This document shows positions 2,910 through 24,220 of a DNA stretch of 34,845 bases, in pieces (position 1 is the first letter of the stretch; the number at the start of each line of letters is the position of its first letter). Origin of the DNA: Nitrospirota bacterium (GTDB taxonomy: Bacteria > Nitrospirota > Thermodesulfovibrionia > Thermodesulfovibrionales > SM23-35); the NCBI GenBank assembly GCA_014859105.1, contig JACUUX010000027.1, forward strand, positions 1 to 34,845. Reading direction: 5' to 3'. Made by a program: the position numbers and the translations under genes. The notes beneath the pieces are model-generated. The model saw nothing but the letters and a program-made list of their open reading frames with translations, did no database searches and had not been told where the DNA came from.

Positions 2910-3053
2910 GTCATTCTGGCTTGTCCAGAATCTTTCTTTGAACAACACCCTAACCCCCTTTACTAAGGGGGATTCAGAAGGATTCCCGACAAGCGGGAAT
3001 GACGGCTTAACGTATCAACTATTCGAACAGAGTTCGTTAAGAATTAAAAGGGT
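2910..3053 (+). repeat. Composite GTCATTC / CCCCCTTTACTAAGGGGG repeat, copy 1
   Basis: The block opens with GTCATTCTGGCTTGTCCAGA, contains the palindrome CCCCCTTTACTAAGGGGG and GATTCCCGACAAGCGGGAAT, and ends AGAATTAAAAGGGT. Positions 2951-3018 (68 nt) are identical to 24118-24185. No ORF is credible here, so 2746-3084 is intergenic repeat territory between tRNA-Leu and the small gene at 3085. Confidence 0.85.
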
Positions 3054-8906: not shown

Positions 8907-8908
8907 AC

Positions 8909-9901
8909 TCACTCCTTTTCTAATGGTAATCCTGCTGATTTCATCTTGTCTCTAAACTCTTCTTCATATTCTTCATAGGTATGAATCTTCACAGGATAAT
9001 CCCATGGATTTACATGTCTTTTATAACGGTTATTATTTGCCAGATTCCTCGTGGGACTTAAAAATACACCCGCCATATGCATCAGCTTGCTCATCGGGAA
9101 ATATGCAAAGAGTACACTGATAAGGAATAAGTGAATATAAAAGATGATATCGATGCCTTGTGGCACAACAGGCTTCAGGGTAACCAGACCCATAGTCAAT
9201 TCCTTTACCCCTACAATATCTGTTTTGAAGAAATAGCGCATTAGAACCCCTGAAGCTCCTATAGCAAAAATCAGCAATAAGGGAAAATAATCAGCCGCAA
9301 GAGATATATAACGCATTTGCGGTATGATAACTCTCCTTAAAAAGAGGAATGTCACCGCAGCCAGAAAAATGATATTTGTAATATAGACGACAGGGGCACC
9401 AACCTGGAAAAATCCGTCAAGTGTCTCCAGAATTTCAATAAACCAGGGGACCGGCTCGAAGAACAGTCTCAAGTGTCTGGTAAGGATAATTAAAAAGGTC
9501 CAGTGAAATGCCAAACCGCCTAACCAGAGCCATTTCGTTGAACCATATGAGAGATGAGGTCCCTCATTCAATTCTGTTTTTGTATTCCTGAACAAAGAAC
9601 GGAATACCAGTACCTCAAGAGCCATTCTGATTAGTACACCAAGCCCGGTGAAAGGATTATCAGTCTTACTGTATTTAATCCAGGGCAGGGATTTCTGTTG
9701 TCCGGTAGTTGTTGGGATACGAAACGGGACAGGTATACGTCCCCATTTTATGACCCGGAAAACGATTCCTACAATAAAAGTAAGTAAAGCTGCATATGGA
9801 AATATAATTCCGAAAAGATAGTGGAGGTTAGCAGCTTGCACTCCAATGAATACGATTACAATAAGCGCTATAACCGTGAATAAGGAAAATAAAAGTCCCA
9901 T
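8909..9901 (-). CDS. dsrM: DsrM, NarI-like cytochrome b subunit of DsrMKJOP
   Basis: 330 residues with two N-terminal hydrophobic segments, then a NarI-type bundle. Membrane histidines suitable for heme b are visible (AFHWTFLIILTRHLRLF and the IYIHLFLISVLFAYFPMSKLMH region). DsrM oxidises or reduces menaquinone and passes electrons to DsrK. The C-terminal cytoplasmic tail (NRYKRHVNPWDYPVKIHTYE) is typical of DsrM/HmeC. It begins 4 nt after the RsbRD_N gene and is contiguous with dsrK. Confidence 0.96.
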   Translation of the reverse strand: MGLLFSLFTVIALIVIVFIGVQAANLHYLFGIIFPYAALLTFIVGIVFRVIKWGRIPVPFRIPTTTGQQKSLPWIKYSKTDNPFTGLGVLIRMALEVLVFRSLFRNTKTELNEGPHLSYGSTKWLWLGGLAFHWTFLIILTRHLRLFFEPVPWFIEILETLDGFFQVGAPVVYITNIIFLAAVTFLFLRRVIIPQMRYISLAADYFPLLLIFAIGASGVLMRYFFKTDIVGVKELTMGLVTLKPVVPQGIDIIFYIHLFLISVLFAYFPMSKLMHMAGVFLSPTRNLANNNRYKRHVNPWDYPVKIHTYEEYEEEFRDKMKSAGLPLEKE

Positions 9902-9905
9902 GTTG

Positions 9906-10469
9906 TTACCCCTTTATATTTTCTTTTTTAAAAATTTCTGGTTCGTTATCAGGTCTCTGCTCATCTATATCATAGACAAGATTTGCCATTTTCAAAAGCC
10001 TGTTCGTCATATTCCTAACTTCATTTACTCTGATTTCAAAAATTTTTTCGCGGCACTTCATATAGATATCGAATGATAGGAGTGCTATTCTGTCTATGTT
10101 GGATTCAAATGACTGAAATTCATCAGAGAGATGATTTTTCTTGATATCGTCTCCCATCTCCTCTCTGATAATTTTCTTCAAGAGAAAAATAAAAGAAACT
10201 GCCCGTGAAGGAGTAAAATCCTGGACTGCTTTGACCCTTATGATATCATCAAGCTTCGAGATACATTTGTCGGAATATATGTCATGAAGGAGTTCGTCAA
10301 ATAAATCCTCGATTCCCTGTGAAATGGTACATCCAACCGGATTGGCAAACCGATCTTTTTGCTTTTTTAAAAAGTTTGAAGAATCAGATGGATAATCCTC
10401 CACTATTTCTTCAAACCACCTTTTCAAAATAAAGGATTTCTTTTCTGAAAGGAGGTTCATTAGATCCAT
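9906..10469 (-). CDS. RsbRD_N-domain protein in the dsrMKJOP operon
   Basis: 187 residues, helical and soluble, starting MDLMNLLSEKKSFILKRWFE. The pattern (N-terminal L-x-x-K-x-x-x-I-x-x-R-W, then NPVGCTISQGIEDLFDELL and an FTPSRAVSFIFLLKKIIREE helix) matches the RsbRD N-terminal sensor domain (PF14361-type), often seen just upstream of dsrM in sulfate reducers. The STAS domain of the full RsbR is absent. It is separated from dsrM by only 4 nt, so it should be expressed with the complex. Its role is unknown; a redox or globin-like sensing or assembly role is inference. A TAG codon just before the ATG fixes the start. Confidence 0.75.
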   Translation of the reverse strand: MDLMNLLSEKKSFILKRWFEEIVEDYPSDSSNFLKKQKDRFANPVGCTISQGIEDLFDELLHDIYSDKCISKLDDIIRVKAVQDFTPSRAVSFIFLLKKIIREEMGDDIKKNHLSDEFQSFESNIDRIALLSFDIYMKCREKIFEIRVNEVRNMTNRLLKMANLVYDIDEQRPDNEPEIFKKENIKG

Positions 10470-10567
10470 AATCTAATATGCAAATCTCCTTTTGGTTTTA
10501 AATTATATTCCTCACTTGGTTAACTTGATTTTATATTCTTAAAAATAAAATCAAATTGAACATTATT

Positions 10568-10600
10568 GAGCAAGAAGTAAGAACATCTTATTTCTTGCTC
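10568..10600 (-). terminator. Hairpin between dsrC and the RsbRD_N gene
   Basis: GAGCAAGAAGTAAG pairs with CTTATTTCTTGCTC (one G-T) around a 5-nt loop AACAT. It lies 24 nt beyond the dsrC stop without a strict T-run. It could terminate part of the transcripts or protect the 3' end of an abundant dsrC mRNA, while some transcription continues into dsrMKJOP. Confidence 0.55.
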
Positions 10601-10623
10601 TTTCACTTTATAAACTTTATAAA

Positions 10624-10959
10624 TTATACGCAACCTGTTGGTTTTGGAAGACCGGCGTATCTACATGCCTGTACCGCAGGCCCGGCTGGGAAAAGCTTAT
10701 ACAGGTACTTCGTATTACCTTTTTCAGGGCCCATAACCTTACCAATTTCCTTAACAAGTATTTTTATCATGGGAGCAATCTGGAATTTAATGAAATATTC
10801 TCTCAAGAAATTAATAATATCCCAGTGTTCCTGTGTGAGCTCCACCCCGTCTTTTTCTGCCATCATCGTTGCCATTCCCGGCAGCCATCCCTCCCAGTCC
10901 ATAAGAAATCCATCCTCGTCCAAGTCATACTGTTTTCCTTCAAATTCCATCTGCGGCAT
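10624..10959 (-). CDS. dsrC: DsrC, sulfur-carrier substrate of DsrAB
   Basis: 111 residues of the DsrC/TusE family. The flexible C-terminal arm CRYAGLPKPTGCV has both redox cysteines, Cys99 and the penultimate Cys110, spaced 11 apart, so it is a functional DsrC and not a single-cysteine TusE. DsrAB loads sulfite-derived sulfur between these cysteines as a trisulfide, which DsrMKJOP then reduces to sulfide. GGAGG lies 9 nt before the ATG. It heads the run leading to the RsbRD_N gene and dsrMKJOP, separated from them by a hairpin. 10960-11250 holds only its leader and the dsrN terminator; I see no convincing promoter hexamers there. Confidence 0.96.
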   Translation of the reverse strand: MPQMEFEGKQYDLDEDGFLMDWEGWLPGMATMMAEKDGVELTQEHWDIINFLREYFIKFQIAPMIKILVKEIGKVMGPEKGNTKYLYKLFPAGPAVQACRYAGLPKPTGCV

Positions 10960-11115
10960 CTGACTACCTCCTTTGTTTTTTTGTTATTTAATTTTTTGAT
11001 AGAAGATATCTCCCATCAAACTAGGCCAAACATATTAACATGTAAATATAAATATTACAAATGCTTGCAAACAGGTTATAAAACCTAATACAAATATATA
11101 CTCATAGTCAAATAA

Positions 11116-11143
11116 AAAAAACTTATTAATAGATAAGTTTTTT
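11116..11143 (-). terminator. Intrinsic terminator of the YcaO-dsrN transcript
   Basis: On the minus strand AAAAAACTTAT pairs with ATAAGTTTTTT around CTATTA, and the T-run continues (TTATTTG). It lies about 110 nt downstream of the dsrN stop and upstream of dsrC. Confidence 0.6.
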
Positions 11144-11250
11144 AGAAAAATCCCATTTTTAGACAATTCATTTGTGAACATTTTAAATTTTGATGAATTT
11201 TTTGCTTTGTAATAAAACTCAGTCTACATTACATAAGCTATCTGTAAAAG

Positions 11251-12660
11251 TCAACCTAAAGTTATAATTTTATGTTTTTTATAAGTTTGTGTAGTATTAA
11301 TCATTCCATATGTCCATTCTTTTGTGCCCAGAGCGTGAAGATGTGTGTAAGTAGCAAGTACATTTTTATAACATAACCCGTCCATTTCATCCATAATTCC
11401 TGTTCCTTTCCTCATTCTGAAAGAAAAATACGTATCTGTCCGGCCTTTAATCTCGACCACATGTGAATAATGAAATTCATGGCCATTCATAACCTGACCG
11501 GTCTTAAAATAAGGATTAGGAGTATCTACTTCCACAATAGTATAACCATGACCCCGGGGTTTTTTACTCACAGCAATAATAATAGGAAGAACTCCAACCA
11601 TTGGATAATTTTTCCCATTCCAGATTAAGCCATCAGCAAGATACATAAGCCCTCCACATTCAGCGTATATAGGCAAACCATCTTCAGCAGCTTGCCTGAT
11701 AGCCCGTCTTAATTTTTCATTAGAGGATAGTATTTCAGCATGTGTTTCAGGAAACCCTCCTCCTATATAGAGGCCGTCGATATCAGACGGGAAATCGTCC
11801 TTTAAGGCACTGAATTCTGAGAGTTTTGCACCCGATCTTTTCAAAGCATCTAAATTTTCCTGATAGTAAAACTGGAAAGCTGAATCACGAATGACACCAA
11901 TCCTCACCCCCTCCCTTGCCCTCCCCCCTCGAGGGGGAGGGATGGGTGGGGGGGTGACTCCCAAAGGGGCTGCCTCATTAGCAATCTCCCACAATTTCTC
12001 CAGATCAAGATATTTTCTAACTATATGAGACGCTGTATTTATTGCCTCTTCAGCCACGGGATGTTCTTGAGGGGGTACTAAGCCCAGGTGTCTACCCGGA
12101 AATTGAACGTCCTTTAATCTCGGGATCGCACCAATTACTGGCAGGTGACAATAATTTTCTATGCTTTTGCGGATAATTGTCTCGTGTCTTAGACCGGCTA
12201 ATTTATTAAGTATTACACCTTCTATTAATACTTCAGGGTCAAGCATCTGACATCCGAGCACCAGCGCAGCTACTGTTCTGGTTACCTTTGTGCAATCAAC
12301 AACAAGGACGACCGGAGATTTTAAAACCTTTGCTATTTCCGCTGTACTCACACTCCCTGTTTCATCCATGCCGTCATAAAGACCACGATTACCTTCAATA
12401 ACTGCTATGTCTGAGTTTTTTGTATGATGGCTGAAAGAGGATAGCACCTGCTCTTTATTCATTAAAAAGAGGTCAATATTATAGCAGGGATGATTGGCTC
12501 CATAATTGAGCCAGGACATATCAATATAATCAGGTCCTTTTTTAAAGGGAGTGACTTTATATCCCTGTTTTTGCCAGAAATGGCAAAGGCCCACACTGAT
12601 TACGGTTTTTCCTGTATCACCACCAAGTCCTGCAATGGTAAGTCTGGGACAATCGATCAT
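11251..12660 (-). CDS. dsrN: DsrN-type siroheme amidase (CobB/CbiA family glutamine amidotransferase)
   Basis: 469 residues. The N-terminal ATP-dependent synthetase domain has the P-loop GLGGDTGKT and VIEGNRGLYDG, and the C-terminal class I glutaminase domain has the nucleophile in YAECGGLMYL and the histidine in THLHALG. CbiA amidates cobyrinate at a and c; the paralog DsrN in dsr clusters is assigned to siroheme amide formation for DsrAB. No cobalamin genes surround it and dsr genes lie on both sides, so DsrN is preferred. The linker between the domains carries an in-frame repeat (PPPIPPPRGGRAREG). The ATG overlaps the YcaO stop by 4 nt. A CbiA role cannot be excluded. Confidence 0.8.
   Translation of the reverse strand: MIDCPRLTIAGLGGDTGKTVISVGLCHFWQKQGYKVTPFKKGPDYIDMSWLNYGANHPCYNIDLFLMNKEQVLSSFSHHTKNSDIAVIEGNRGLYDGMDETGSVSTAEIAKVLKSPVVLVVDCTKVTRTVAALVLGCQMLDPEVLIEGVILNKLAGLRHETIIRKSIENYCHLPVIGAIPRLKDVQFPGRHLGLVPPQEHPVAEEAINTASHIVRKYLDLEKLWEIANEAAPLGVTPPPIPPPRGGRAREGVRIGVIRDSAFQFYYQENLDALKRSGAKLSEFSALKDDFPSDIDGLYIGGGFPETHAEILSSNEKLRRAIRQAAEDGLPIYAECGGLMYLADGLIWNGKNYPMVGVLPIIIAVSKKPRGHGYTIVEVDTPNPYFKTGQVMNGHEFHYSHVVEIKGRTDTYFSFRMRKGTGIMDEMDGLCYKNVLATYTHLHALGTKEWTYGMINTTQTYKKHKIITLG
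11905..11954 (-). repeat. 50-nt CCCTCC-palindrome inserted in frame in dsrN
   Basis: This 50-nt block, with a CCCTCCCCCTCGAGGGGGAGGG-type core, matches 32213-32262 inside mnmA at 48 of 50 positions. In dsrN it adds about 16 proline/arginine/glycine-rich residues between the two enzyme domains, in the frame TPPPIPPPRGG. No stop is created. Confidence 0.85.
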
Positions 12661-14387
12661 TTTTCGGGTGAGCCCGCATTCATAATTTTTAAATAATCCC
12701 TGAATTGTCTCTTACTAAAATTTGAGTACTTATCAAAATCAGGCAACATCTCCATTCCGGGTATTATCGCCCTAACAGCAGGAATGTCTAAGTCTTTTTT
12801 TGTCAGATTTACATAAATGGGATGCAAACCGTTCATCATTAATAACTTCTCTAATATCCATAAATCATTATTTACATTTCCTGAGGAATAGTTCGGAAGC
12901 TTCTCATACTTTACTGTACTCTGAATTTCTTCTGTTAAAGGTTTTGTTGAATAGTTGCCAGAGAGAAAGTAGGTAGATGTTAATTCGCATAATGCCCTGT
13001 TTATAGCAATCTTCCCATCCAGATGTGCACCCCATCCTCTCGAAAATCCACCTCTGGAATGGATAAAGAACGCCTTATAGCAGGGAACTCCAATCTCAGA
13101 CGTTAAATCTAAGAATTGTATGTGAACGCCTTTTTTCTTCCAGGTAGTCAGGGTGTTATTTAAAATGGGATCCTCTGCTTCTAATAGAAAGTACCTGTCT
13201 GGAGAGAAAAGCATAACCTTCTCTGAATCCCTTTCTATATATTCTAATAGAGCGCAAAGTTTGGCTTCTTCCATTGTATTCCCTGAAGCCAGGCCATTTG
13301 TTGTAGTACCCTGGCTGTAGAGGTCGATCTCATCAAAATTACCCGAAGAAATAAGAAAAGCAAATTGTGCTGGTATATAAATCTCTCTGGAACCACCTTC
13401 ATCAACTTCTTCAGCGATAATCCAGTATAATTCTTGATCTTCGTAGGGAACTTCGAGATTCATTTTGTTTGGGTCGAGAACATTTTGTCCTTTATCTCTC
13501 AGTTCGCTATCCCTCGATTTAATAAGACTGTATTCTCTCTTATATCCAATGGATTGATTGTTATAAAAATTTGCTAATGCTGAATATCTCTCTACTATCT
13601 CCATTAAGGCAGAGGCCCTTGCCTCATCTTCTGTCAGGCCTTTCCCATACTCTCGCAAAGCACCCTCAAGTACCCAGTTATTTCTTCCCACGGCTACCTC
13701 TATATGGACTTTCCATCTTCTTATAAAGGCATAAGGACTGACACTCCATTCTACCTTTATGTCGTCATCGTCAAGCAGCACGTCCTTGATTAGCGGATTA
13801 TTCAATATCTTATCTATAGTCTCCTTCGGCTCTATGACCCTTATCGAGGTCCCTGTATCAAAGGATTTATCATTCGATCCTGAATATACATCTCGTATAT
13901 GAATTATCCTGCCTTCAGCAAGGGAACCTGAATCAAAAGGAATGGGAAATGTAGTAGATTTAAAGGGTGATAAGTCCATGTGATAGTATTTATTCCTTGA
14001 AAACATATCCATCCAAAAAAGACGGGATTCGAGATTTCCATCCAGGGACCATCTTATATAAATCAATGGTGTATGCCCGGCTAATAGGTGTATATCTATA
14101 TCATTAAATTTTTCTTTAAGTCTATAAAATGTATTGTATGAAATGCATGTTTCGTAAAGACATGCTAATAATGAGAAATCATCTGCTTTTTTAGCTTTCT
14201 CTATTAATTCACCAAGTTCACTCTCATCGAATTCTTCTAACCGGCTTATTAGATACTTGTACATAAACTTATCGTTTGGACGGGACCGGAGATATTCAAT
14301 AATTTCCTCAACGGTCAACTCCTTAGCCGGTACGATAGAAAGGAGATCAAAAACTATACCTCGAATTAGCTCTATTGTATAAATCAT
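12657..14387 (-). CDS. YcaO-domain protein coupled to dsrN
   Basis: 576 residues. The YcaO core (about residues 210-490) shows the ATP-binding motifs GKGLTEDEARASALMEIVER near residue 248 and GLASGNTMEEAKLCALLEYI near residue 365, plus the conserved aromatic/glycine segment SRGGFSRGWGAHLD. YcaO enzymes use ATP to activate a peptide backbone amide, making azolines or, with a sulfur donor, thioamides. The first 200 residues form an additional helical domain I do not recognise. There is no proline-rich C terminus of the azoline cyclases, no TfuA and no precursor-peptide gene nearby. The stop overlaps the dsrN ATG by 4 nt, suggesting a joint role in the Dsr system; substrate unknown. Confidence 0.85.
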   Translation of the reverse strand: MIYTIELIRGIVFDLLSIVPAKELTVEEIIEYLRSRPNDKFMYKYLISRLEEFDESELGELIEKAKKADDFSLLACLYETCISYNTFYRLKEKFNDIDIHLLAGHTPLIYIRWSLDGNLESRLFWMDMFSRNKYYHMDLSPFKSTTFPIPFDSGSLAEGRIIHIRDVYSGSNDKSFDTGTSIRVIEPKETIDKILNNPLIKDVLLDDDDIKVEWSVSPYAFIRRWKVHIEVAVGRNNWVLEGALREYGKGLTEDEARASALMEIVERYSALANFYNNQSIGYKREYSLIKSRDSELRDKGQNVLDPNKMNLEVPYEDQELYWIIAEEVDEGGSREIYIPAQFAFLISSGNFDEIDLYSQGTTTNGLASGNTMEEAKLCALLEYIERDSEKVMLFSPDRYFLLEAEDPILNNTLTTWKKKGVHIQFLDLTSEIGVPCYKAFFIHSRGGFSRGWGAHLDGKIAINRALCELTSTYFLSGNYSTKPLTEEIQSTVKYEKLPNYSSGNVNNDLWILEKLLMMNGLHPIYVNLTKKDLDIPAVRAIIPGMEMLPDFDKYSNFSKRQFRDYLKIMNAGSPEK

Positions 14388-14442
14388 TAAGTCTGTTCCT
14401 TTATTATGTCGCCTTCAGCTTCTTAGCTATTATTTGTATAAT

Positions 14443-14551
14443 GTCATTCTCCCGCCTGTCGGGAATTTCCCCCTCTGTCATTGCTGCTTGTCGGCAATCC
14501 TTCCCGCTCAGTCGGGGATCGGAAAAAAGATTCCGCACAAGCCGGAATGAC
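14443..14551. repeat. Cluster of GTCATTCC-type palindromes
   Basis: Three imperfect palindromes follow one another: GTCATTCTCCCGCCTGTCGG, GTCATTGCTGCTTGTCGGCA, and GATTCCGCACAAGCCGGAAT ending in GAC. The 14388-14652 gap between the YcaO and FmdB genes contains these repeats and no credible gene; short plus-strand ORFs here are repeat readings. Confidence 0.75.
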
Positions 14552-14652
14552 ATCACCGGACAAAATCCCAAATGACGGTGTAATAGTATTAACTTTTTGC
14601 AACAGTCAGGTTTACTGCATCTCCGCCAAGGCTTGTAATGGCAAGCAGCAGA

Positions 14653-14889
14653 TCATCTTTTAGGTCCAGGCACCTCTATTGTAGTACAGGTACTATCACC
14701 GCATTCCCTGACTGTTCGGGTAGGCCCTCCACTGCGAGACTTAATAACTCCTATCCTGCTCAAGGCTCGCTCAACCTTTTTATGCCCGCATTTCGGGCAC
14801 TTCATCTCAACTTTTTCGCTCTCTTTTTTAAGATTTAAAATCTCGAAGATATGTCCACACTGGAGACAGCGAAATTCGTAAATAGGCAT
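14653..14889 (-). CDS. FmdB-family zinc ribbon protein
   Basis: 78 residues beginning MPIYEFRCLQCGHIFEI, with two C-x-x-C knuckles (CLQCGH and CPKCGH) that make one zinc ribbon, followed by an arginine/serine-rich tail with two extra cysteines. FmdB-type proteins are often annotated as regulators, but their biochemical role is mostly unknown. It lies in the dsr-associated run on the minus strand, upstream of the YcaO gene but separated by a repeat cluster, so cotranscription is uncertain. A +1 frame is open for a further 26 codons past its stop. Confidence 0.85.
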   Translation of the reverse strand: MPIYEFRCLQCGHIFEILNLKKESEKVEMKCPKCGHKKVERALSRIGVIKSRSGGPTRTVRECGDSTCTTIEVPGPKR

Positions 14890-14966
14890 AGAATTTTCCC
14901 CTTTTCAAAAATCCTGCAGTAAAAATTTATACTAAAAAAAATAATAACACGGTTTACACGACTTTG

Positions 14967-14992
14967 GTCATTCCTGCCTGCGCAGGAATGAC
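14967..14992. repeat. Perfect GTCATTCCTGC palindrome
   Basis: GTCATTCCTGC pairs with GCAGGAATGAC around CTGC (11-bp stem). It belongs to the same repeat family as 14443, 19575, 20176, 24065 and 29433, and sits between the FmdB and winged-helix genes, where it may also act as a transcript end. Confidence 0.8.
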
Positions 14993-15048
14993 ACTATTAA
15001 AACTGTCTCCACAATATCTTTACTTAATTGGGTTTAATTAATTCGTTT

Positions 15049-15258
15049 CTAAGATTTTAGCTTATATCCCCCTACCCCGGCAGCCCTGCCTGCACCCACA
15101 ATCTTCCCTTCAAGTTCCATTTCTTTGATACATTGCATTACTGTTTTAAAATCTAAACCTGTTCCTTTCTTGATCTCGGCTTGAGTCGCTACTCCTTTTT
15201 CACTTTCCTTAAAGCTCCCTAAAAAATCAAGAATCTTTTGCTTTGCCTCTTCGTTCAT
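15049..15258 (-). CDS. Small winged-helix protein next to dsr genes
   Basis: 69 residues: helix MNEEAKQKILDFLGSF, then a helix-turn-helix (TQAEIKKGTGLDFKTVMQCI), a third helix and a glycine-rich wing (GAGRAAGVGGYKL). Size and order match stand-alone winged-helix domains and recall DsrD, though the sequence is clearly different from the DsrD at 19814 and lacks its STGSTTMYGLKG segment. It could bind DNA as a local regulator or act as a protein-binding module. AGGGAGGAAAAA before the ATG gives a good ribosome-binding site. Confidence 0.75.
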   Translation of the reverse strand: MNEEAKQKILDFLGSFKESEKGVATQAEIKKGTGLDFKTVMQCIKEMELEGKIVGAGRAAGVGGYKLKS

Positions 15259-15506
15259 TTTTTCCTCCCTTTGAATTTGTAATATATATACTTTACCATA
15301 TCTATAAAAGTCAAGGATGCAAATTGCCTCATAAGAAAATTAAATGGAAAAGATCTCAGCTCAGCAAGATTCCTCATCTTATAAAAGTTTAGACATGCAA
15401 TGGTATGAAATAGAAGTAAATTTGCCTCTACCATATAGAAAATAGAAAATCGTTCGTACGGAAATCCGGCAAGGCAGTGAGCTACACTGAAGACAATATA
15501 TAGCAT
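15255..15506 (-). CDS. Doubtful 83-residue hypothetical ORF
   Basis: The ORF is open for 83 codons, rich in F/L/Y, and its TGA overlaps the ATG of the winged-helix gene. However it has no Shine-Dalgarno before its ATG, resembles nothing I know, and its last codons coincide with the strong ribosome-binding site of the next gene. I regard it as possible but weak. If it is not real, 15259-15590 is an AT-rich leader with no other visible content. Confidence 0.22.
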   Translation of the reverse strand: MLYIVFSVAHCLAGFPYERFSIFYMVEANLLLFHTIACLNFYKMRNLAELRSFPFNFLMRQFASLTFIDMVKYIYYKFKGRKK

Positions 15507-15590
15507 AATATAGCATAAAAATTATTGATTCCACTTTGACTTTTTTTGTTTTTTAATACAAAATTAGTGAACGACAAAAATTAATTTGCA

Positions 15591-15660
15591 TCCCCCTCAC
15601 CCTAACCCTCTCCCACCAGTGAAGAGGGCAAATCCCCTCTTGAGAGGGGTGCAGGGGTGT
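15591..15660. repeat. CCCTCAC / GAGAGGGG palindromic repeat block
   Basis: The block holds CCCCTCACCCTAACCCTCTC, AGTGAAGAGGG and the hairpin CCCCTCTTGAGAGGGG. It is the intergenic form of the repeats found inside the 448-residue gene, dsrN, mnmA and the DagK-like gene. It precedes the HEAT gene at 15750 by about 90 nt. Confidence 0.75.
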
Positions 15661-15749
15661 GTTGGCCTCCATTGACAGAAGGGGCTGTAGGGGAGATGAT
15701 GATTTATAACAACTTATCTAGTACGTTAACTGTAGTGAAGGAGTAAATA

Positions 15750-16826
15750 ATGAAAATTGGGATGTTATTTACAGAGACCCGCTGTCCATTCTGCGGGCAT
15801 GATATCGAGCAAAGTAAGGAACTGATGGAAAGAAAGCCTCGTGAGTTTCCCCTTGGTGTCTGTAACCATTGCGGAGCTGTCTATGCCTATGATGCTACAG
15901 GACACAACAGAGGGGCTGCCTTTGTTGAGGCCTTACTATTCGCCTGTAATTATGATGATTATCTTGCCTTTTCACTTACAGCAGGAGAGGACTATCTCGA
16001 TGCAATTGTAGAAAATTATGATCCTGTAACTCATAGTGTAATCCATAGAGGAGTTCTGGATGATAGAGCCATCAGAGGGATATTAATTTTTGTTAAACTT
16101 AACACAGAATTCCAGGAAGCCACCGGGGAAAAGGTTAAAGAAAAAATAAAGGTCGCACTTCCACTTTCTCTGCCTAAATTACGCTCGGAGAAGTTCTCCA
16201 GAGAAAAAGTACGTAAATATTTATCAGAAAACAGGTTTGAAGACATTATTGCCCTGTCAGAAGAAGACGCCCGGATAATTTCTGAACTTCATCGTATGCT
16301 TTATACCCCAGATATAAAGTTACGCTGGCGGATAATAGAACTATTAAGCGACGTGAGTGAAAAAATAGGAGAAAAAAGACCGGATGAAATAAGTAAGTTC
16401 TTGAATCGGTTATTAAACAATGCAGGAGATTCTGCTTCCTCAGCCTGGGGTGCCCTTGAGACTGTGGGAGCAATAATAAGCGCAAATCCAGATTTATTCG
16501 GTGAGTTTAGCCAACCCTTGATGTCCTTTTTTGCATACAAAAACTATTGGAATGAAGTCACATGGGCCATCGGGAAAATTGCAACAAAAAAACCGGATTT
16601 GGTTAAAAAAGCCTATCCCCTTCTTTGTTCTTTCATGAAAAATCCAGACCCTACTTTGCGAGGATATGCAGCATGGGCATTGGGTAATTTAGGGTATAAC
16701 GATGTAGCAGAAGAACTAAAAAAACTTGAATCAGATCATGAACAAATCCAGATTTTTAGAAATGGAAAATTAGAAAAGGTTACCGTTGCTCAATTGGCAA
16801 AAGAAGCAATTGAGAAGTTGAAATGA
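15750..16826 (+). CDS. Zinc-ribbon plus HEAT-repeat protein (DVU0298-like)
   Basis: 358 residues. The N terminus carries a two-knuckle zinc ribbon (CPFCGH near residue 13, CNHCG near residue 38). The C-terminal half, from about residue 150, is a HEAT-type helical array that aligns along its length with the 218-residue protein at 23261: KLRWRIIELL against KLRWPAIETF, AWGALETVGAII against WNAPQTIAEII, RGYAAWALGNLGY against LGLAAWAMGEVGY. Such proteins resemble the DVU0298 family of sulfate reducers. GGAG lies 9 nt before the ATG. It is transcribed opposite to the surrounding dsr genes, together with the 448-residue gene. Probably a scaffold or adaptor; function unknown. Confidence 0.75.
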   Translation: MKIGMLFTETRCPFCGHDIEQSKELMERKPREFPLGVCNHCGAVYAYDATGHNRGAAFVEALLFACNYDDYLAFSLTAGEDYLDAIVENYDPVTHSVIHRGVLDDRAIRGILIFVKLNTEFQEATGEKVKEKIKVALPLSLPKLRSEKFSREKVRKYLSENRFEDIIALSEEDARIISELHRMLYTPDIKLRWRIIELLSDVSEKIGEKRPDEISKFLNRLLNNAGDSASSAWGALETVGAIISANPDLFGEFSQPLMSFFAYKNYWNEVTWAIGKIATKKPDLVKKAYPLLCSFMKNPDPTLRGYAAWALGNLGYNDVAEELKKLESDHEQIQIFRNGKLEKVTVAQLAKEAIEKLK

Positions 16827-16863
16827 ATTGGACAACAAAGTACGCATTTGACCGACAGTTCAC

Positions 16864-18210
16864 ATGAAGCAGAACAGATCATTTATAAAATATCTTGTCT
16901 CATCTCCCTATGGTGATATCCCTGTAAATAAGAGGAAGTGGCATTTGCCATTAGAATACGATACTTTAAAGACTCCTTACAAAACATATTTCAACCTTAT
17001 AAGAGAATTCCTCGCCAGAGATGAATTAAAACTTCTCCTTGAAGCAGCCAGCAAAAAACTTGATCGGAAAATACATTTAAAGGAAGTTAATAAAATTAGC
17101 GTTCGCTCTGAAAAACACGGGTTTTTATACCATCCGGCAAGTATTGAAGTAATTCTCAAACAAGGTAAAGTAAACCCCGTTAGAAAGGGTCGGGCTTTAA
17201 ACGAGGTGGGGCTTTCTAACGGGGTAAAATTTGGTCTAAATGTGGCTATATCGGACGTTGGCAAGGATTGGTTAAGAGAAGAATCTTCTGTCCTCAAGCG
17301 TTTAAATACAAAATTTAACCTGCCATACTTACCAGAACCTTATCTTTTCAGCGAACTCAATAATATGTCATTCCTCCTCGAAGATTGGTTTGAGGGTTAC
17401 CATGAATTTCACATATCCAGAGACAAAGATGGTGCTCAAAGATTAAAACTCTGGGATTTTGATCATGGTTATAAATACCTCTCTTCTGAACAGAGCTTTG
17501 AACTATATAAACAGGCTTCTAAAATTTTAACCCTTTACTATAATTTTAAAGACTACAGTCAAATCCTCCACTGGCATCACGCAGCAGGGGATTTTGTAGT
17601 AAGAATGGGAGATGAAAATAATTCACCCTCCCCTAACCCCTCCCATCAAGGGAGGGGAAACAAAAGGGAGAACTCCTTTCGAGTTCGAGTGGTGGAAGAT
17701 AAAAGGGAAATTTTCCATCCAGGGAGAGGGCATCCAGCTTTAATTCCCTCTCCCCTTGCGGGAGAGGGCAAGGGTGAGGGGTATTTTCAAGATAAAATAG
17801 ACGTCCGCCTCACCACAGCGAGGCGGTATGAGCCACCGATGGTCTTTAGAAATAAAGACCCTGTCAATCCTTTCCTGGGACTATTCTCTTTCTTTTTAAA
17901 CTTGACCGTTAGAATGCGCATGGACAAACTAAATGGCACGGGTGAAGTGGCATGGGCAGACGATATCTGCCTTGAGGCTACCATAACAGGATTTCTCGAA
18001 GCACTGAAATTGAAGGAAGAATTAAAAAACTATATTGGTTCAGTAGAAGAGTTTTTGGGATTGTTAAAGTCCTTCGGAGAGGAAGAGCTTAAAATCACCT
18101 TTAACTCTATAATAGACTTATATACTGGAGAGGAATACTTTGCGGTATTAATAGAAAATTTAGAGGAACATGTAAGGAAACTATACGCTACTATCCAAAA
18201 TCTCCCTTAA
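16864..18210 (+). CDS. Unrecognised 448-residue protein with three in-frame repeat insertions
   Basis: I do not recognise a family with certainty. The pattern LPEPYLFSELN, FLLEDWFEGYHEFHIS, LWDFDHGY and ILHWHHAAGDFVVR recalls an aminoglycoside-phosphotransferase/kinase-like fold (hinge, then H-x-A-x-D catalytic loop), but this is weak. The C-terminal part (LGLFSFFLNLTVRMRMDKLNG) is well conserved-looking. Three repeats are built in at about residues 102-122 (NPVRKGRALNEVGLSNGVKF), 253-268 and 293-306, each reading through. There is no Shine-Dalgarno; instead a 14-codon mini-ORF (16823-16867) overlaps the HEAT gene stop and this ATG. The 3' end overlaps the convergent YkgJ-type gene by 20 nt. 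Removing the insertions leaves about 395 residues. Confidence 0.7.
   Translation: MKQNRSFIKYLVSSPYGDIPVNKRKWHLPLEYDTLKTPYKTYFNLIREFLARDELKLLLEAASKKLDRKIHLKEVNKISVRSEKHGFLYHPASIEVILKQGKVNPVRKGRALNEVGLSNGVKFGLNVAISDVGKDWLREESSVLKRLNTKFNLPYLPEPYLFSELNNMSFLLEDWFEGYHEFHISRDKDGAQRLKLWDFDHGYKYLSSEQSFELYKQASKILTLYYNFKDYSQILHWHHAAGDFVVRMGDENNSPSPNPSHQGRGNKRENSFRVRVVEDKREIFHPGRGHPALIPSPLAGEGKGEGYFQDKIDVRLTTARRYEPPMVFRNKDPVNPFLGLFSFFLNLTVRMRMDKLNGTGEVAWADDICLEATITGFLEALKLKEELKNYIGSVEEFLGLLKSFGEEELKITFNSIIDLYTGEEYFAVLIENLEEHVRKLYATIQNLP
17174..17225. repeat. 14-bp inverted repeat (ACCCCGTTAGAAAG) inside the 448-residue gene
   Basis: ACCCCGTTAGAAAG and CTTTCTAACGGGGT form a perfect 14-bp stem around a 24-nt loop. 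Read in frame it gives NPVRKGRALNEVGLSNGVKF. It looks like an inserted mobile palindrome. Confidence 0.85.
17622..17672. repeat. CCCCTCCC/GGGAGGGG repeat inside the 448-residue gene
   Basis: The core CCCCTCCCATCAAGGGAGGG plus G is a hairpin flanked by CCCTCCCCTAA. It reads in frame as SPSPNPSHQGRGNK. Confidence 0.75.
17743..17781. repeat. CCCTCTCCC/GGGAGAGGG repeat inside the 448-residue gene
   Basis: The hairpin CCCTCTCCCCTTGCGGGAGA plus GGG is followed by CAAGGGTGAGGGG. It reads in frame as IPSPLAGEGKGEG. Confidence 0.75.
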
Positions 18211-18838
18211 TAATTGCTTCAAAGGGCATTCTCAAAACCCTTGAGAGAGGCAACATGAGATTAGCTTTATTTAGTTTTACTATCGGCGTACCACCCACTG
18301 TCAAAAGCTCTCTGGAAAGCTTTACGAGCTCATTATACAATTTATCAAGCTTCACTGTTGGATAGGTTACTTTTTCCTGAAAACCAGAAACACCGCAGAC
18401 ATGGGATTTCTCCTTTTTCCCATCTTTCAGGCTGTAAGGTACTCCGTATATTCTACATATGATAGGGCGTTTTTCATAGAGAACACATTCTTTTCTATCC
18501 GTCAAAAAAGGACATCTTATCCTTTCTTTACCTAAACCATATACCTGCATCTGGGGTTTATTATCAAAAACCTGCAGCCTGTCTTTTGCTCTTAATATCT
18601 CATCATCTGCCTTTTCAGCCCTCCTCAGGACATCCCTCTTTATCTTTCTATCTAAATGGTTAAAATGATATCTCAAATGAGCTGCCTCTATAGGAAAAAC
18701 ACCAAAAACCGCATAGCAGCAATCGCAGCAACGGATTCTGCATTTAACGCTGAGGGGGTATTTTTCTGCGATTGATTTAAAAAGAATGTCAGCCTTCTGG
18801 GCAACAGTTGCATATTTAGAAAAAAGGTTATCGATCAT
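18191..18838 (-). CDS. YkgJ-family cysteine-cluster (Zn/Fe-binding) protein
   Basis: 215 residues with the family pattern: C-x3-C-C-x-C-C near residues 33-41 (CRIRCCDCCYAVFG), then CPFLTDRKECVLYEKRPIIC and RIYG. The cysteines could bind a metal or Fe-S centre. Related proteins sit near flagellar, methanogenesis and sulfur genes without a fixed function. It begins 3 nt beyond the TPR gene stop, so the two are probably cotranscribed downstream of dsrABD. Its 3' end overlaps the convergent 448-residue gene by 20 nt. Confidence 0.82.
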   Translation of the reverse strand: MIDNLFSKYATVAQKADILFKSIAEKYPLSVKCRIRCCDCCYAVFGVFPIEAAHLRYHFNHLDRKIKRDVLRRAEKADDEILRAKDRLQVFDNKPQMQVYGLGKERIRCPFLTDRKECVLYEKRPIICRIYGVPYSLKDGKKEKSHVCGVSGFQEKVTYPTVKLDKLYNELVKLSRELLTVGGTPIVKLNKANLMLPLSRVLRMPFEAIIKGDFG

Positions 18839-18841
18839 CCG

Positions 18842-19510
18842 CTACGTTTTTTCTCTCCCGACGTTTTTTGACAGTTTTTTCCTTACCTTTTTTCTGTGAG
18901 GTTCCAGAAGTTTTAAAAAATCGTGGTGTACTTCAAATCCTAATTCTACTGCCTTATCACAATATTGAACTGCCTTATAGAACTCTCCCTTTAAATAATA
19001 TACATTAGCAAGGTTATTGTAACCCAATGCAAAGTTTGGAGCAAATTCAATCATCTTTTTATTGATTTCGAGACTCTTTTCGATATCTCCTTTTTGAAGG
19101 TAGGCATTAGCAAGATTGCACATGGCCTGCACAATGTCTGGATTTAATTCTAACGACTTTTCGAGTGCATGGATGGCCTCTTCTGTCTTTCCCATTTGAA
19201 GATATGCAAACCCCAGATTTGAATACCCCCTCGCATATCTGGGTTCTATTTCTACAGCCCTCAGATTTGCTTTGACAACTTTTTCAAGATCACCTTCTTT
19301 GAAATAGATGTAACCCAGGTTAACAAAGGCCTCGAACATCCGTTCACCATCATCTATAGACTCTTCAAAGGCATCAATTGCCTCATCAAACCTTCCCTGA
19401 TTCATAAGAACAACCCCTAAGTTATATTTAGCGGTAGCACACCCTGGATTTTCAGCAAGCATTCGCTTCTGCTCATAGACAAATTGCTCAATATTTTTCG
19501 GCTCTTTCAC
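18842..19510 (-). CDS. TPR-repeat protein
   Basis: 222 residues made of about five to six tetratricopeptide repeats with regular W/L-G-Y/F-A-P positions (for example ATAKYNLGVVLMNQGRFDEA, ARGYSNLGFAYLQMGKTEEA, ALGYNNLANVYYLKGEFYKA). It is a protein-binding scaffold without signal peptide, thus cytoplasmic. It starts at GTG 19510 with GGGAGG upstream. It follows dsrD after about 300 nt that contain a hairpin and a repeat, and is followed at once by the YkgJ-type gene. Confidence 0.88.
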   Translation of the reverse strand: MKEPKNIEQFVYEQKRMLAENPGCATAKYNLGVVLMNQGRFDEAIDAFEESIDDGERMFEAFVNLGYIYFKEGDLEKVVKANLRAVEIEPRYARGYSNLGFAYLQMGKTEEAIHALEKSLELNPDIVQAMCNLANAYLQKGDIEKSLEINKKMIEFAPNFALGYNNLANVYYLKGEFYKAVQYCDKAVELGFEVHHDFLKLLEPHRKKVRKKLSKNVGREKT

Positions 19511-19574
19511 GAAAAATCCTCCCTCTCTTTTAACAGTTATTTTACTAATAAATTCATAAATAAGGCAACATGCA

Positions 19575-19611
19575 TGTCATTTCAGAAGGATTCTGGACGA
19601 GCCAGAATGAC
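19575..19611. repeat. GTCATTTCAGAAGGATTCTGG...CCAGAATGAC repeat
   Basis: A member of the GTCATTCC palindrome family in the 19511-19813 gap. Its right half ATTCTGGACGAGCCAGAATG is a clean inverted repeat. Confidence 0.75.
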
Positions 19612-19774
19612 AAAAAATTACAAAAGGTTGCAGACAGATCCCCAATAATCAAGGACAAGCCGCAATGAATGAAACGGATAAGGATGCCGTTTTACTTATG
19701 AACTCCTCAATAACAATCTATCAAGGAGGGGGTATAAAAAAGTGATATAGATTTTCTACAAATAATAGAATCAT

Positions 19775-19799
19775 GGTGGCTGTTTTTTTACCAGCCACC
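19775..19799. terminator. Hairpin after dsrD
   Basis: GGTGGCTG pairs with CAGCCACC around TTTTTTTAC. The T-run (GGATTTTTTATC) lies on the plus side and the A/T tract on the minus side. Its position 15 nt past the dsrD stop suggests transcript termination or 3'-end protection of dsrD. Confidence 0.6.
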
Positions 19800-19813
19800 G
19801 GATTTTTTATCAC

Positions 19814-20068
19814 TTATTCAGTCTGAGTTCCTGATTCTTCTGATGATATACCTCTTCCTTTTAACCCGTACATTGTGGTGCTACCAGTCGAGAAGTACTC
19901 TACGGCACCCTCGCTCACCAGTTCGGTTGCTGCCTTCTTCACCTCAGATCCTGTAGCATCTGGAATGGTCTTTTTCACACCAGAAACCATATCTTTGAAA
20001 TAGACCTTGGTCTTTGCACCCTTTGATAGATATTCAATTAAAGCCTTCTTAATTTCCTCCGTTCCCAT
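19814..20068 (-). CDS. dsrD: DsrD, winged-helix activator of DsrAB
   Basis: 84 residues with the DsrD signature: KTKVYFKDMVSG near the N terminus and VEYFSTGSTTMYGLKGRG in the wing. DsrD is known as a small winged-helix protein encoded after dsrAB in sulfite/sulfate reducers and has been reported to stimulate DsrAB activity. Its presence marks a reductive Dsr. AGGAGTGAG lies before the ATG. A strong hairpin and a repeat stand in the 265-nt gap from dsrB. Confidence 0.95.
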   Translation of the reverse strand: MGTEEIKKALIEYLSKGAKTKVYFKDMVSGVKKTIPDATGSEVKKAATELVSEGAVEYFSTGSTTMYGLKGRGISSEESGTQTE

Positions 20069-20175
20069 AGCTTCTCACTCCTTTCATGATCTACGATTCA
20101 TGATTTACGATTAATTTACAGTACAGTAGCATATCAAAAAATACTTGTCAATGGTGCGTAAAAAAAGAGATACTT

Positions 20176-20255
20176 CATCCCGACTCATGCCGGGATTCAT
20201 ATGACCGGCTGGAGATTTGTCATTATGAGCGTAGCAAAGAATCTCCTTTTGGAGA
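20176..20255. repeat. TCCCGACTCATGCCGGGA / GTCATTATGAGCG repeat
   Basis: An inverted repeat (TCCCGACTCATGCCGGGA) is followed by GGAGATTTGTCATTATGAGC and AAGAATCTCCTTTT, which form a second imperfect hairpin. It fills the dsrB-dsrD spacer with the hairpin at 20291. Confidence 0.7.
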
Positions 20256-20290
20256 ATCAGCAAAATATAGAAAGTGAATCAAATCAAAGT

Positions 20291-20319
20291 CCCGTCAGGT
20301 CTAAAGCCTGACGGGACAA
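20291..20319 (-). terminator. Strong hairpin between dsrB and dsrD
   Basis: GTCCCGTCAGG pairs perfectly with CCTGACGGGAC around a 7-nt loop, followed on the minus strand by TTTGATTTGATTC. It stands about 15 nt after the dsrB stop. It is a good intrinsic terminator or attenuator and would reduce read-through from dsrAB into dsrD. Confidence 0.75.
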
Positions 20320-20333
20320 GTGATTTTTATTTT

Positions 20334-21512
20334 TTATATACCATCTACCGCCCTGGATACTGCCCAGGCATGTTCTGTGAATTTAAATTGCATTGATGTC
20401 CGATAGGTATCATAAGCCAGACGATAGTCATCAAGCAGATGCCATGTGAAGGGAAGCTCCGTTTTCTCAAAGAATCTCTCCCAACCAATACGCGCGGCCC
20501 AGTCGCCTAACCTTTCATACTTATTTGCATCTTTTGCATAAACATCTACTATCTTCTTAACTACATCACAAACCTCTGGCCAGCGAGGAGTAGTATTGGG
20601 TAAGATGGGAACAACTATCTTTGAGAACTTTGGGTGTGTTACGCGACTTGATATTTTCCCACCAACGAGAATACTTACGCCATCTCCTTCTTTGTCTGCT
20701 AAGGGCACTGCCGCACACATGGTGTAACAGTTCCCGCAGAACATACACTTTTCCTCGTTGATTTTGACACTTCTTTTTCCTTCAGGCGAGGTTACAGGCT
20801 TTATTGCATATAGTGGACAGGCAGCAACTACGAGCGGGATTTCACACATCTTTCCTATATGATCATCATCAACAATTGGCGGTTTGCGGTGATAACCGAG
20901 AAGGGCAATATCAGAGCAGTGCACAGCCCCGCACATGTTGAGACAACATGCCATAGAGACCCTGAGTTTTGCCGGTAATTTCATTTCCTTAAAATGGTCG
21001 AAAAGAGCGTCAGCCACAGACTTCACTAATCCAGAGGCATCGGTAGCAGGGGTATGGCAGTGAAACCACCCCTGGGTGTGCACGATAGCGGTTATACCCA
21101 TCCCTGTACCGCCTGTAGGAAATCTATAAGAACCTCCGGAATGTTTCCTGCTATCTAAGTCCTTCTTTAATGCCTTCGCCTTTTCTTCACTGTCTGTTAT
21201 AAATTCAGCGTTATTTCTTGTTGTCCATCTCATATACCCACCGCAATACTTGTCAGCGATGTCACACATCTCACGAACATTCTCCACAGACACTAACCTC
21301 GGTTGACCAACTCTCACTGTATAGGCCTTATCACCCGTTTCTGAGACATGCATTATCAAACCGGGCTCCAAAATCCTGTGAGATGCCCACTTCCCGTAAT
21401 TCTTTCTGATAACGGGTGGTAAAAACTGCTGATAATTAGGTGGACCAATATCAGTAATCCTGTTCTCTTGCGGCTTTTTGGGGTCATAATAACCTAATCT
21501 AGCTCTCGACAT
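20334..21512 (-). CDS. dsrB: Dissimilatory sulfite reductase beta subunit
   Basis: 392 residues. The siroheme-[4Fe-4S] binding region ([12 protein letters not shown], then MACCLNMCG near residue 190) is followed by an inserted ferredoxin domain (ACPLYAI and [11 protein letters not shown] near residues 232 and 256-266) and the C-terminal sulfite-reductase half. With DsrA it forms the alpha2beta2 enzyme that reduces sulfite with DsrC as co-substrate. AAAGGAGGT precedes the ATG. dsrA ends 24 nt upstream. Confidence 0.97.
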
Positions 21513-21536
21513 AATATACCTCCTTTATAATATCTA

Positions 21537-22982
21537 TCATAGTGGATGCTTCTTCCTGTAGTCCTTGATATCCCTCTTCCATCCTCCGGGAACCTCAGAC
21601 TCTTTAAAGAACATGTACGGATTAGAACGAGGCTCTCTTATGCTCTGAGGCATAACAGGGATGCCGAGCACATCTGTAATAAAAGTCTTAAGACCAAATC
21701 TTTGAATGCACTCACCGAGACGTTCACGGTTTTTGCCTTCTTCCATCCACCAATCCTGGACCTTCCTTGTAACCTCTTTAAGGTTATCATAAGGCTTCTT
21801 TACATACATAAATGGTATGGTCACCAGTGACATCTGTGCACCTTCTAATATAGGCGCCTTTGCCCCGAAGAGGAGGGTAATACCTGTATCTACACCCGGC
21901 CTCAATGCCTCAGGCATGACATCAATACAGTGCATGCAACGGGTGCATTCAGGGTTGTTAATAGTGAGCTTATTTCCATCCCAGCGCATACACTGGGTGG
22001 GACAGAGATCGATAACTTCCTTCTGAATGTCGAAGGGTCCCCAATCCCTGCCTGCGAATGCACCTCCATCGGGTGGAATCTTACCAGCAACATACTCCTT
22101 TACAGCCTCCTGATCAATCCTGATATCATCCTTCCATGTGCCTATATGGGATTGATCGGCACGAGCTATAGCGGCAACACAGTCATTTGGGCATCCGGAA
22201 AATTTAAACTTGTATTTATATGGGAATGCAGGCCTGTGTAACTCATCCTGGAAGCTCATGGTCATGTCATAACACATATCAAGGGTATCGAAACAGGCCC
22301 ACTCACACCTTGCCATACCAAGGCAATCTGAAGGTGTACGGAGGTTGGAACCCGAGCCACCTATATCGCCACCCATGTCATGGGTCAGGTCAAAAAATAT
22401 AGGTTCCAATTGTTCTGTAAAAGTACCCAGAAAAATAGTGTCACCTGTTGAGCCATGCATGTTCATTATTCCACTTCCCCGGTATTCGCAAATATCACAT
22501 AATCCCCTGAGATAATCAGTGTTATAAAAATGGCCACCCGGCTGATTGATTCTTACAGTGTGGAAATGAGCAATGGACGGAAATTTGTCTTGCTGATCAG
22601 AATAACGGCCTATAACTCCACCTCCATAGCCAAGGACTCCAATAATGCCGCCATGTTTCCAGTGAGTTTCTTTATTTATGTAAGAGAGTTCAACCTGTCC
22701 TAAAAGGTCTTCGCAGCACTCCACAGGTAGCATCAAATTATCCTGCCCGAGCTTCTTCCTGTGTAGTGCCTCTCTTTTGACATCGCTAAAACAACTGGGC
22801 CACGGACCTTTTTCCAGTTCATCCATCTGCGGGGTAGCATGTTTGATTTTAAAGGCCTTCAGTTCTTCTTCAGTATAAGCAGCTTTTTTCAGCTCCTCTT
22901 CGGTAAAAATCCTTATGTCGTTGTAAGTCCTGTGCTCTTTCTCTTCCTTGTCCCATAAATGCTCTTGTCCTTCAGCTGCCAT
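21537..22982 (-). CDS. dsrA: Dissimilatory sulfite reductase alpha subunit
   Basis: 481 residues. The siroheme-[4Fe-4S] site C-x5-C (Cys220/Cys226, CLGMARC) and C-x3-C (Cys264/Cys268, SGCPNDC) is intact, followed by a ferredoxin domain (LCPTQC near residue 327, CTRCMHC near residue 346). The N-terminal extension of about 50 charged residues makes it longer than the typical 420-440. AAGGAGGTA lies before the ATG. It is the first gene of dsrABD, with a promoter 160-185 nt upstream. Confidence 0.97.
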   Translation of the reverse strand: MAAEGQEHLWDKEEKEHRTYNDIRIFTEEELKKAAYTEEELKAFKIKHATPQMDELEKGPWPSCFSDVKREALHRKKLGQDNLMLPVECCEDLLGQVELSYINKETHWKHGGIIGVLGYGGGVIGRYSDQQDKFPSIAHFHTVRINQPGGHFYNTDYLRGLCDICEYRGSGIMNMHGSTGDTIFLGTFTEQLEPIFFDLTHDMGGDIGGSGSNLRTPSDCLGMARCEWACFDTLDMCYDMTMSFQDELHRPAFPYKYKFKFSGCPNDCVAAIARADQSHIGTWKDDIRIDQEAVKEYVAGKIPPDGGAFAGRDWGPFDIQKEVIDLCPTQCMRWDGNKLTINNPECTRCMHCIDVMPEALRPGVDTGITLLFGAKAPILEGAQMSLVTIPFMYVKKPYDNLKEVTRKVQDWWMEEGKNRERLGECIQRFGLKTFITDVLGIPVMPQSIREPRSNPYMFFKESEVPGGWKRDIKDYRKKHPL

Positions 22983-23260: not shown

Positions 23261-23917
23261 TTAATTCTCTTTTATTGTAGAAATTGCATATTCTGCCCAT
23301 TGCTCTACAGATTTCCTCTGAAAATCGCTTTTAATATAAATACTTACATTTTCTTTATTGCCACGCAGTTTTTCCAAAAAAGGGACTGCAGGTTTATAAC
23401 CAACCTCTCCCATGGCCCATGCTGCTAAGCCGAGAATCTCTACATCGTCACTCTGGAAAACCGATAATAATTTTTCTTTGAAAAAATCCACTGATTCAGC
23501 CATCTTCTCTCCCAACCTTCCTATTCCCCACAGACAACCTTTAACAAGAGGGGGTTCTTCGATAGTATGTGCTATCATCATACTTCCATAAGGGTCAATT
23601 AAAACAGGTATATTTGCTATAATTTCTGCGATAGTTTGAGGGGCATTCCAGCCGATTCCACCTGATTCGTCATTTATAGACCAGAACAGGTTTCTTATAT
23701 ATTCCCGAACCTTTTTTTCACGTCCCGATTCCCACCATTTTTTCATGATTTTCGCAAAAGTTTCAATAGCCGGCCAGCGGAGCTTTTCATCAATTTCGTA
23801 AAGCCGGAACCGGACTTCTTTCCAGTAATTTCTGTCCGCCTCGCATAAATCAACAAGGCGATCATAATCTCTGTTTTCTAAAAGCTCTCTAATGTGTTTT
23901 CTTACAGATTTATCCAT
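23261..23917 (-). CDS. HEAT-repeat protein (DVU0298-like), second copy
   Basis: 218 residues from the ATG at 23917 (longer readings start at 23944). It is an all-helical HEAT array: KHIRELLENRDYDRLVDLCE, then EKLRWPAIETFAKI, GWNAPQTIAEIIANIP, GCLWGIGRLGEKMA and LAAWAMGEVGYKPAVPFLEK. It aligns along its whole length with the C-terminal half of the protein at 15750 but lacks the zinc ribbon. The two lie outside and inside the dsr cluster on opposite strands. A TATAAT lies 9 nt before the ATG at 23917 and no Shine-Dalgarno is visible, so the transcript may be leaderless. Function unknown. Confidence 0.75.
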   Translation of the reverse strand: MDKSVRKHIRELLENRDYDRLVDLCEADRNYWKEVRFRLYEIDEKLRWPAIETFAKIMKKWWESGREKKVREYIRNLFWSINDESGGIGWNAPQTIAEIIANIPVLIDPYGSMMIAHTIEEPPLVKGCLWGIGRLGEKMAESVDFFKEKLLSVFQSDDVEILGLAAWAMGEVGYKPAVPFLEKLRGNKENVSIYIKSDFQRKSVEQWAEYAISTIKEN

Positions 23918-24064
23918 GTTAAGTGTATTATACAGAAATTTCATTTATACAACTTTCGCAGTACAAGACGAAGGGCTCAGTGTGATCCCGAAGGCTTTCG
24001 GGGCTGTCCTTGATTTTTCAAAAGAATCGCTCAATTTACTCATAGCGGCCTCCGTTCCAATGGT

Positions 24065-24220
24065 TGTCATTATCCGGCTTGACCGGATAATCCAGAACCT
24101 TTCTCTGAACAACCCTCTAACCCCCTTTACTAAGGGGGATTCAGAAGGATTCCCGACAAGCGGGAATGACGGCTTAACGTATCAAACATTGGAACAGAGT
24201 TCGTTATGAATTAAAAGGGT
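24065..24220 (+). repeat. Composite GTCATT / CCCCCTTTACTAAGGGGG repeat, copy 2
   Basis: 24118-24185 is identical over 68 nt to 2951-3018, and the block ends TTATGAATTAAAAGGGT, the boundary also seen at 185-208 and, inverted, at 34709. The preceding GTCATTATCCGGCTTGACCG differs from copy 1 but has the same layout. An apparent plus-strand ORF over 23892-24209 comes from this repeat. Confidence 0.85.

Follow-up and report, generated by a model that had tools for sequence, protein, structure and literature searches.

Palindromic, mobile-element-like repeats in frame within surface turns of a predicted kinase-like gene in a Nitrospirota sulfite reductase cluster

How does one gene come to carry several strong DNA hairpins and still read through to a normal stop? 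The question is raised by the ORF at 16864-18210 (forward strand, 448 aa) of contig JACUUX010000027.1, from the genome of an uncultured Nitrospirota bacterium (assembly GCA_014859105.1), of which the whole analysed stretch of 34,845 nt is referred to here as the window. A sequence-only reading had described three separate palindromic insertions in an unknown gene and offered loose constraint or a hotspot as the cause. The coordinates and the folding of its three hairpin blocks were confirmed: blocks A (17174-17225), B (17622-17672) and C (17743-17781) are stop-free and in frame, and gave folding energies of −27.0, −24.3 and −23.2 kcal/mol, with z-scores against dinucleotide shuffles of −4.6, −3.0 and −2.4, respectively. 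The most stable 55-nt segments of the gene, which has a median of −7.2, are those over A, B and C, and the GC content of the inserts is 54-56%, compared with 37% for the gene. We consider the blocks repeats rather than chance palindromes because the core of C has 18 exact pattern matches in the source genome and recurs exactly in 49 of 198 Nitrospirota genomes, with a reversed control pattern giving 0 matches in every genome, and because element A has several relatives elsewhere in the source genome (G000). A fourth hairpin, CCGCCTC...GAGGCGG at 17803-17828 (forward strand), was rejected as an element; it is native coding sequence, and the residues that it encodes, RLTTAR, are conserved in orthologs.

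The hairpins thus proved real, but their count as insertions did not hold. The element A copy (AGTAAACCCCGTTAGAAAG...CTTTCTAACGGGGTAAA; 17169-17228, forward strand) is a 54-nt in-frame insertion at residues ~103-120, which also occurs in the sister genome G011 (L003/L037) but in none of the other Nitrospirota orthologs seen. B and C, in turn, are diverged inverted units that form the two hairpin ends (CACCCTCCCCTAACCCCTCCCATCAAGGGAGGGGAAA, 17624-17660, and CCCTCTCCCCTTGCGGGAGAGGGCAAGGGTGAGGGG, 17744-17781, both on the forward strand) of one insertion, which with its flanks occupies 17615-17798 (forward strand; residues ~252-309). We treat them as one composite, and reject three independent insertions, because 9 of 12 B units in a 0.71-Mb sample are accompanied by a C unit no more than 130 nt away, with order and strand unchanged, and because alignment of the gene with the ortholog of G011, which has A without B...C, revealed a single extra segment of about 177 nt that spans both. 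Peptide sequences of the host protein that are related to the inserts are NPVRKGRALNEVGLSNGVK and IPSPLAGEGKGEGYFQDK.

The ends of the composite resemble those of a mobile element. Candidate terminal repeats lie at 17614-17622 on the left (GAAAATA(AT), with GGAGAT just before it) and at 17782-17793 on the right (TATTTTC, with AAGAT just after it), both on the forward strand. The same GAAAATA/TATTTTC ends recur in other copies of this B...C subfamily, and the AGAT/AAGAT that borders the insertion in the host gene is a possible target-site duplication of 4-5 bp. Signs of terminal repeats and target duplications stand out only in this subfamily and are weak elsewhere; element E is a 42-44 bp inverted repeat for which target duplication was not evident at the copies inspected. 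Two element-end sequences of interest are GAAAATA...CACCC and AATCCCCCC.

The possibility that the gene is decaying, so that insertions pile up because it is no longer needed, would fit two insertions in one gene and the low complexity of the added peptides. Absence of orthologs together with a high dN/dS would have pointed that way; orthologs were found in 15 of 61 genomes, and dN/dS was 0.24 (window/G011), 0.14 (G017/G008) and 0.16 (L008/L010), indicating that the gene is under purifying selection. The raw ortholog tally was 16, but G048 matches through repeats alone and was left out. Invariant residues are retained, synteny is conserved and the predicted fold is confident, which, with the dN/dS values, led us to reject decay as scarcely credible. 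The remainder of the protein is conserved, as had been supposed: orthologs without inserts align gap-free on either side of A and of B...C, so that they represent empty sites.

All 15 orthologs belong to the family of the source genome, in which 20 genomes were compared, and the gene is also present in many Desulfobacterota; named relatives of the protein come from Thermodesulfovibrionales and other Nitrospirota MAGs. Within the order the gene was found in this family alone, yet dsrA scored over the cut-off in 52 of the 61 genomes. The gene lies in the dsr (sulfite reductase) cluster, a large cluster (4910-22982) that is syntenic with several relatives and contains dsrMKJOP-like, cobB-like, YcaO, DVU0298-family, CxxCxxCC protein, TPR, dsrD-like and dsrAB genes. 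Two DVU0298-family HEAT-repeat proteins are encoded near the cluster, at 15750-16826 and 23261-23944.

Structure prediction makes the gene less than wholly unknown. The AlphaFold model of an insert-free ortholog, built from an alignment of 55 sequences, had a mean pLDDT of 91.2, and Foldseek returned 109 PDB chains at E<=1e-3 (best E 3.3e-5), with kinases throughout among the matches listed. Structural matches included PsiK (Z 13.1, rmsd 5.4, 258 aligned) and Bud32 (Z 12.7, rmsd 4.1, 216 aligned), and the protein is accordingly modelled as having a bilobal protein-kinase-like fold. By motif reading, the conserved WHHAAGDF and RLTTAR appear to stand where the kinase HxD and DFG aspartates are expected, suggesting that both catalytic aspartates are replaced and that the protein may be pseudokinase-like. 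Membership in DUF1722 was rejected, as the Pfam match scored 17.5 bits, below the cut-off of 22.5.

The models place both insertions in surface loops. In the window protein, pLDDT falls below 50 at residues 1-4, 104-116 (A) and 252-309 (B...C) and is mostly above 90 elsewhere; the inserts are flanked by predicted strands 90-98/120-128 and 244-248/312-316, respectively. In the insert-free ortholog the same sites are predicted as tight beta-hairpin turns between strands 88-96/99-108 and 224-229/232-237, which by kinase topology would correspond to the turns that join beta2 to beta3 and beta7 to beta8. Loose constraint and hotspot therefore both apply, although to loops and not to the whole gene, since two turns tolerate insertion and one of these loops has been struck repeatedly across genera.

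We regard it as very probable that A and B...C are selfish REP/MITE-like palindromic mobile elements that are translated with the rest of the gene, their presence being tolerated at permissive surface turns. Copies of dispersed elements would have inserted into the coding region, and the reading frame would survive as each insertion is a multiple of three, stop-free and placed in a two-residue surface beta-hairpin turn. The ribosome would read through, so that the protein would gain disordered stretches of about 18 and 60 residues while, judging from structure and selection, its kinase-like fold would be preserved. Purifying selection presumably purges frame-breaking or core-disrupting copies, so that surviving intragenic copies would pile up in a few permissive turns, where palindrome families would replace one another as insertion and loss continue across the family. 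Strong hairpins in the mRNA could instead be cut out or skipped by the ribosome, leaving a protein without them. This is very improbable: it would make in-frame, stop-free insertion needless, yet the intragenic copies found keep frame (in an ORF-based census), and split genes are absent at the sites tested.

A census in a sample of 0.71 Mb (34 stretches plus the window) indicated that the host gene is not an isolated case. Members of five palindrome families, A-E, are scattered through the genome. The sample contained 65 copies or composites, 27 of them in frame within ORFs, 8 at the edges of ORFs and 30 in intergenic regions; the rates are upper estimates because the contigs were partly picked for holding hits, and the ORF-based approach favours intragenic copies that keep frame. 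An unrelated G repeat (ATTCCCGACAAGCGGGAAT) was inside ORFs in only 4 of 51 cases, compared with 27 of 65 for A-E (Fisher P = 4e-5). At the intergenic sites checked no split genes were found, the flanking ORFs being distinct genes. Each element leaves several of the six frames open (E, 3; D, 6; C, 5 or 3 by variant; B, 3; A, 2), making in-frame survival likely.

Genes carrying inserts in the sample include those for RpoD, TopA, IspD, LpxK, CobD, FabF (two) and a NuoG-like protein, as well as family-4 UDG, Nnr, GspK, a heptosyltransferase and mnmA. RpoD, TopA, IspD, LpxK and FabF are expected to be products of essential genes. In the in-frame carriers, profile matches were found on both sides of the insertion site or across it. 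Genes with at least two insertions numbered 3 against 0.98 expected (P = 0.06), a mild excess, and a significant excess of multi-hit genes is unsupported. In rpoD, encoding the housekeeping sigma factor, the insert is a fragment of element A (RVNPVRNSLK; L163:16028-16053). A Mur-ligase-like ORF, Mpl/MurC by eye (L225:285-1868, G004:C93), carries an in-frame B...C-type composite in the opposite orientation.

Further copies lie in the window itself. Element D is in frame in the interdomain linker of a CobB-like cobyrinate a,c-diamide synthase (11904-11957, reverse strand) and in a loop of MnmA, encoded at 32091-33299 (32212-32262, reverse strand), a second loop of which holds element E (32327-32377, reverse strand). 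Another E copy is in frame in a loop of a diacylglycerol-kinase-like gene at 31142-32107 (31583-31626, forward strand), and an intergenic copy of element C lies at 15593-15628 (reverse strand). The contents of these loops also differ between relatives: the CobB linker, filled by D in the window, has E in both G011 and G004; across several genera the two MnmA loops hold D, E or repeats of other types; and where the loop of the diacylglycerol-kinase-like gene has E in the window, that of G011 has a different palindrome. The pattern shared by these three genes indicates that loop turnover is family-wide and not peculiar to the host gene. In other genera (L201, L202), MnmA loop 1 contains a different repeat type, RSQKSEVRSQKS.

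Within the host gene, the B...C loop has been filled in different ways. B...C is present in the window and in G017 (L002/L046), with a remnant in L041; type E (NPPSPPFTKGG...GDLGGF) occupies the loop in L006/L043, L008/L050 and L010/L039; L004/L051 has a degenerate low-complexity stretch; and the loop is short in most other orthologs. L008 and L010 have an additional E insert in a third loop, and a C-like palindrome occupies the A loop of L079, a Desulfobacterota relative. B...C is absent from G008, the congener of G017, with the pair 91-93% identical in DNA.

Two histories other than repeated insertion could account for this distribution. A single ancient insertion in the ancestor of the family, followed by vertical descent and many losses by deletion, would be consistent with L041, whose loop equals that of the window minus 141 nt, an in-frame deletion, and with a possible E scar in L012. 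It is improbable, however, given that insert DNA is 90-100% identical while the gene body is far more diverged, that in the gene tree each carrier of B...C neighbours a sister without it (G011, G008, L038), and that E and B...C types alternate. Alternatively, short palindrome-bearing loop patches may have been swapped between genera by homologous recombination, so that the same-loop pattern is partly horizontal transfer. Several similarities point in this direction: the L041 loop is identical to that of the window at 45 of 45 nt; the window and G017 share 90% identity in the loop but mostly 53-78% in its flanks; GTGAGGGGTATTTTCAAGATAAAAT has exact matches only in the host genes of G000 and G017 among the 61 genomes, with one looser match in G004; and G017 departs from G008 beyond the insert, with 68% identity for about 100 nt and then 89-95% further out. 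Judged from these comparisons, a near-identical loop in three distant genera appears to exceed what plain independent insertion would be expected to give. On the other hand, TATTTTC is the natural element end, occurring in other copies, which reduces the shared flank to AAGAT plus native codons and weakens the argument from the 3' adapter for horizontal transfer; the genomes compared are MAGs; and alternation of E and B...C at one site still requires insertion or replacement. We therefore hold patch exchange to be possible without favouring it. A broader proposal, that the element pool drives ongoing loop diversification, with the same turns in housekeeping and sulfur-metabolism proteins gaining, losing and exchanging inserts of different types, partly by inter-genus patch exchange or target-preferring insertion, seems to us rather unlikely in that full form.

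Returning to insertion of selfish palindromic elements, their dispersal, palindromy, in-frame copies, presence or absence in close relatives and placement in turns were all observed, and their mobilisation would presumably occur in trans. Among the Y1_Tnp genes searched in the source genome, none of five loci was flanked by A-E, and mobilisation by that genome's own RAYT/IS200 transposases was rejected on this basis. One RAYT-like gene (L119:939-1496, G000:C113) is flanked by its own GTAG-type palindrome, GTAGGACAGGCG...CGCCTGTCCTAC, a copy of which also lies within the N-terminal coding region of the gene. A second RAYT-like gene (L120:4376-5005, G000:C40) is interrupted in frame by a palindromic sequence (GTAGGGGCAGGCCCCTGTGCCTGCCC...).

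The elements resemble several known systems. Rickettsia palindromic elements (RPEs; Ogata et al. 2000, 2002) are described in a review (PMC10969869) as inserting in frame into unrelated protein-coding genes. By that description (PMC10969869), A-E are similar in being dispersed multicopy palindromes, in frame in unrelated genes whose orthologs lack them, and apparently compatible with protein structure, but they differ in belonging to another phylum, in the coexistence of several GC-rich families within one AT-rich lineage and in the reuse of the same turn by different families across genera. GTAG/CGTC REPs in coding regions are often dimers that encode 20-30 aa, sometimes two per gene, and in Xanthomonas recB different REPs occupy about the same site in two genes (Di Nocera et al. 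2013, PMC3733652); that study makes no mention of Nitrospira. A-E share with these REPs (PMC3733652) the intragenic in-frame copies, although the copies inspected by eye have no GTAG or CGTC foot and A-E do not adjoin RAYT genes in the source genome. Like MITEs they are short, non-autonomous and dispersed with terminal inverted repeats, but no parental transposon was found among the Y1_Tnp genes searched and target duplications are unclear in most copies. PARCELs are likewise protein-coding palindromic DNA that moves between genomes (PMC2996958); they consist of 25-residue units in tandem, frequently within membrane or surface proteins, whereas A-E occur singly or in pairs as inserts in housekeeping proteins.

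The kind of element is thus known from Rickettsia and other bacteria and is unusually common here. Our literature search returned no protein-coding palindromic elements of Nitrospirota and, as far as we found, what is new is the families themselves, their occurrence in this phylum and the way in which different families occupy the same turns again and again. These results extend such elements, at a high load, to an uncultured sulfite-reductase-bearing Nitrospirota lineage that offers natural pairs of empty and filled sites in many genes. The question posed by RPEs, whether new protein segments originate from selfish palindromes, becomes directly testable with orthologs that have none, A, B...C or E in one loop. 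In such genomes the repeats also inflate protein lengths and give false similarity hits, as in G048.

The window also contains a 130-nt repeat pair (2924-3053 and 24091-24220; 94% identical), which includes the palindrome GATTCCCGACAAGCGGGAAT, nearly always intergenic in the source genome.
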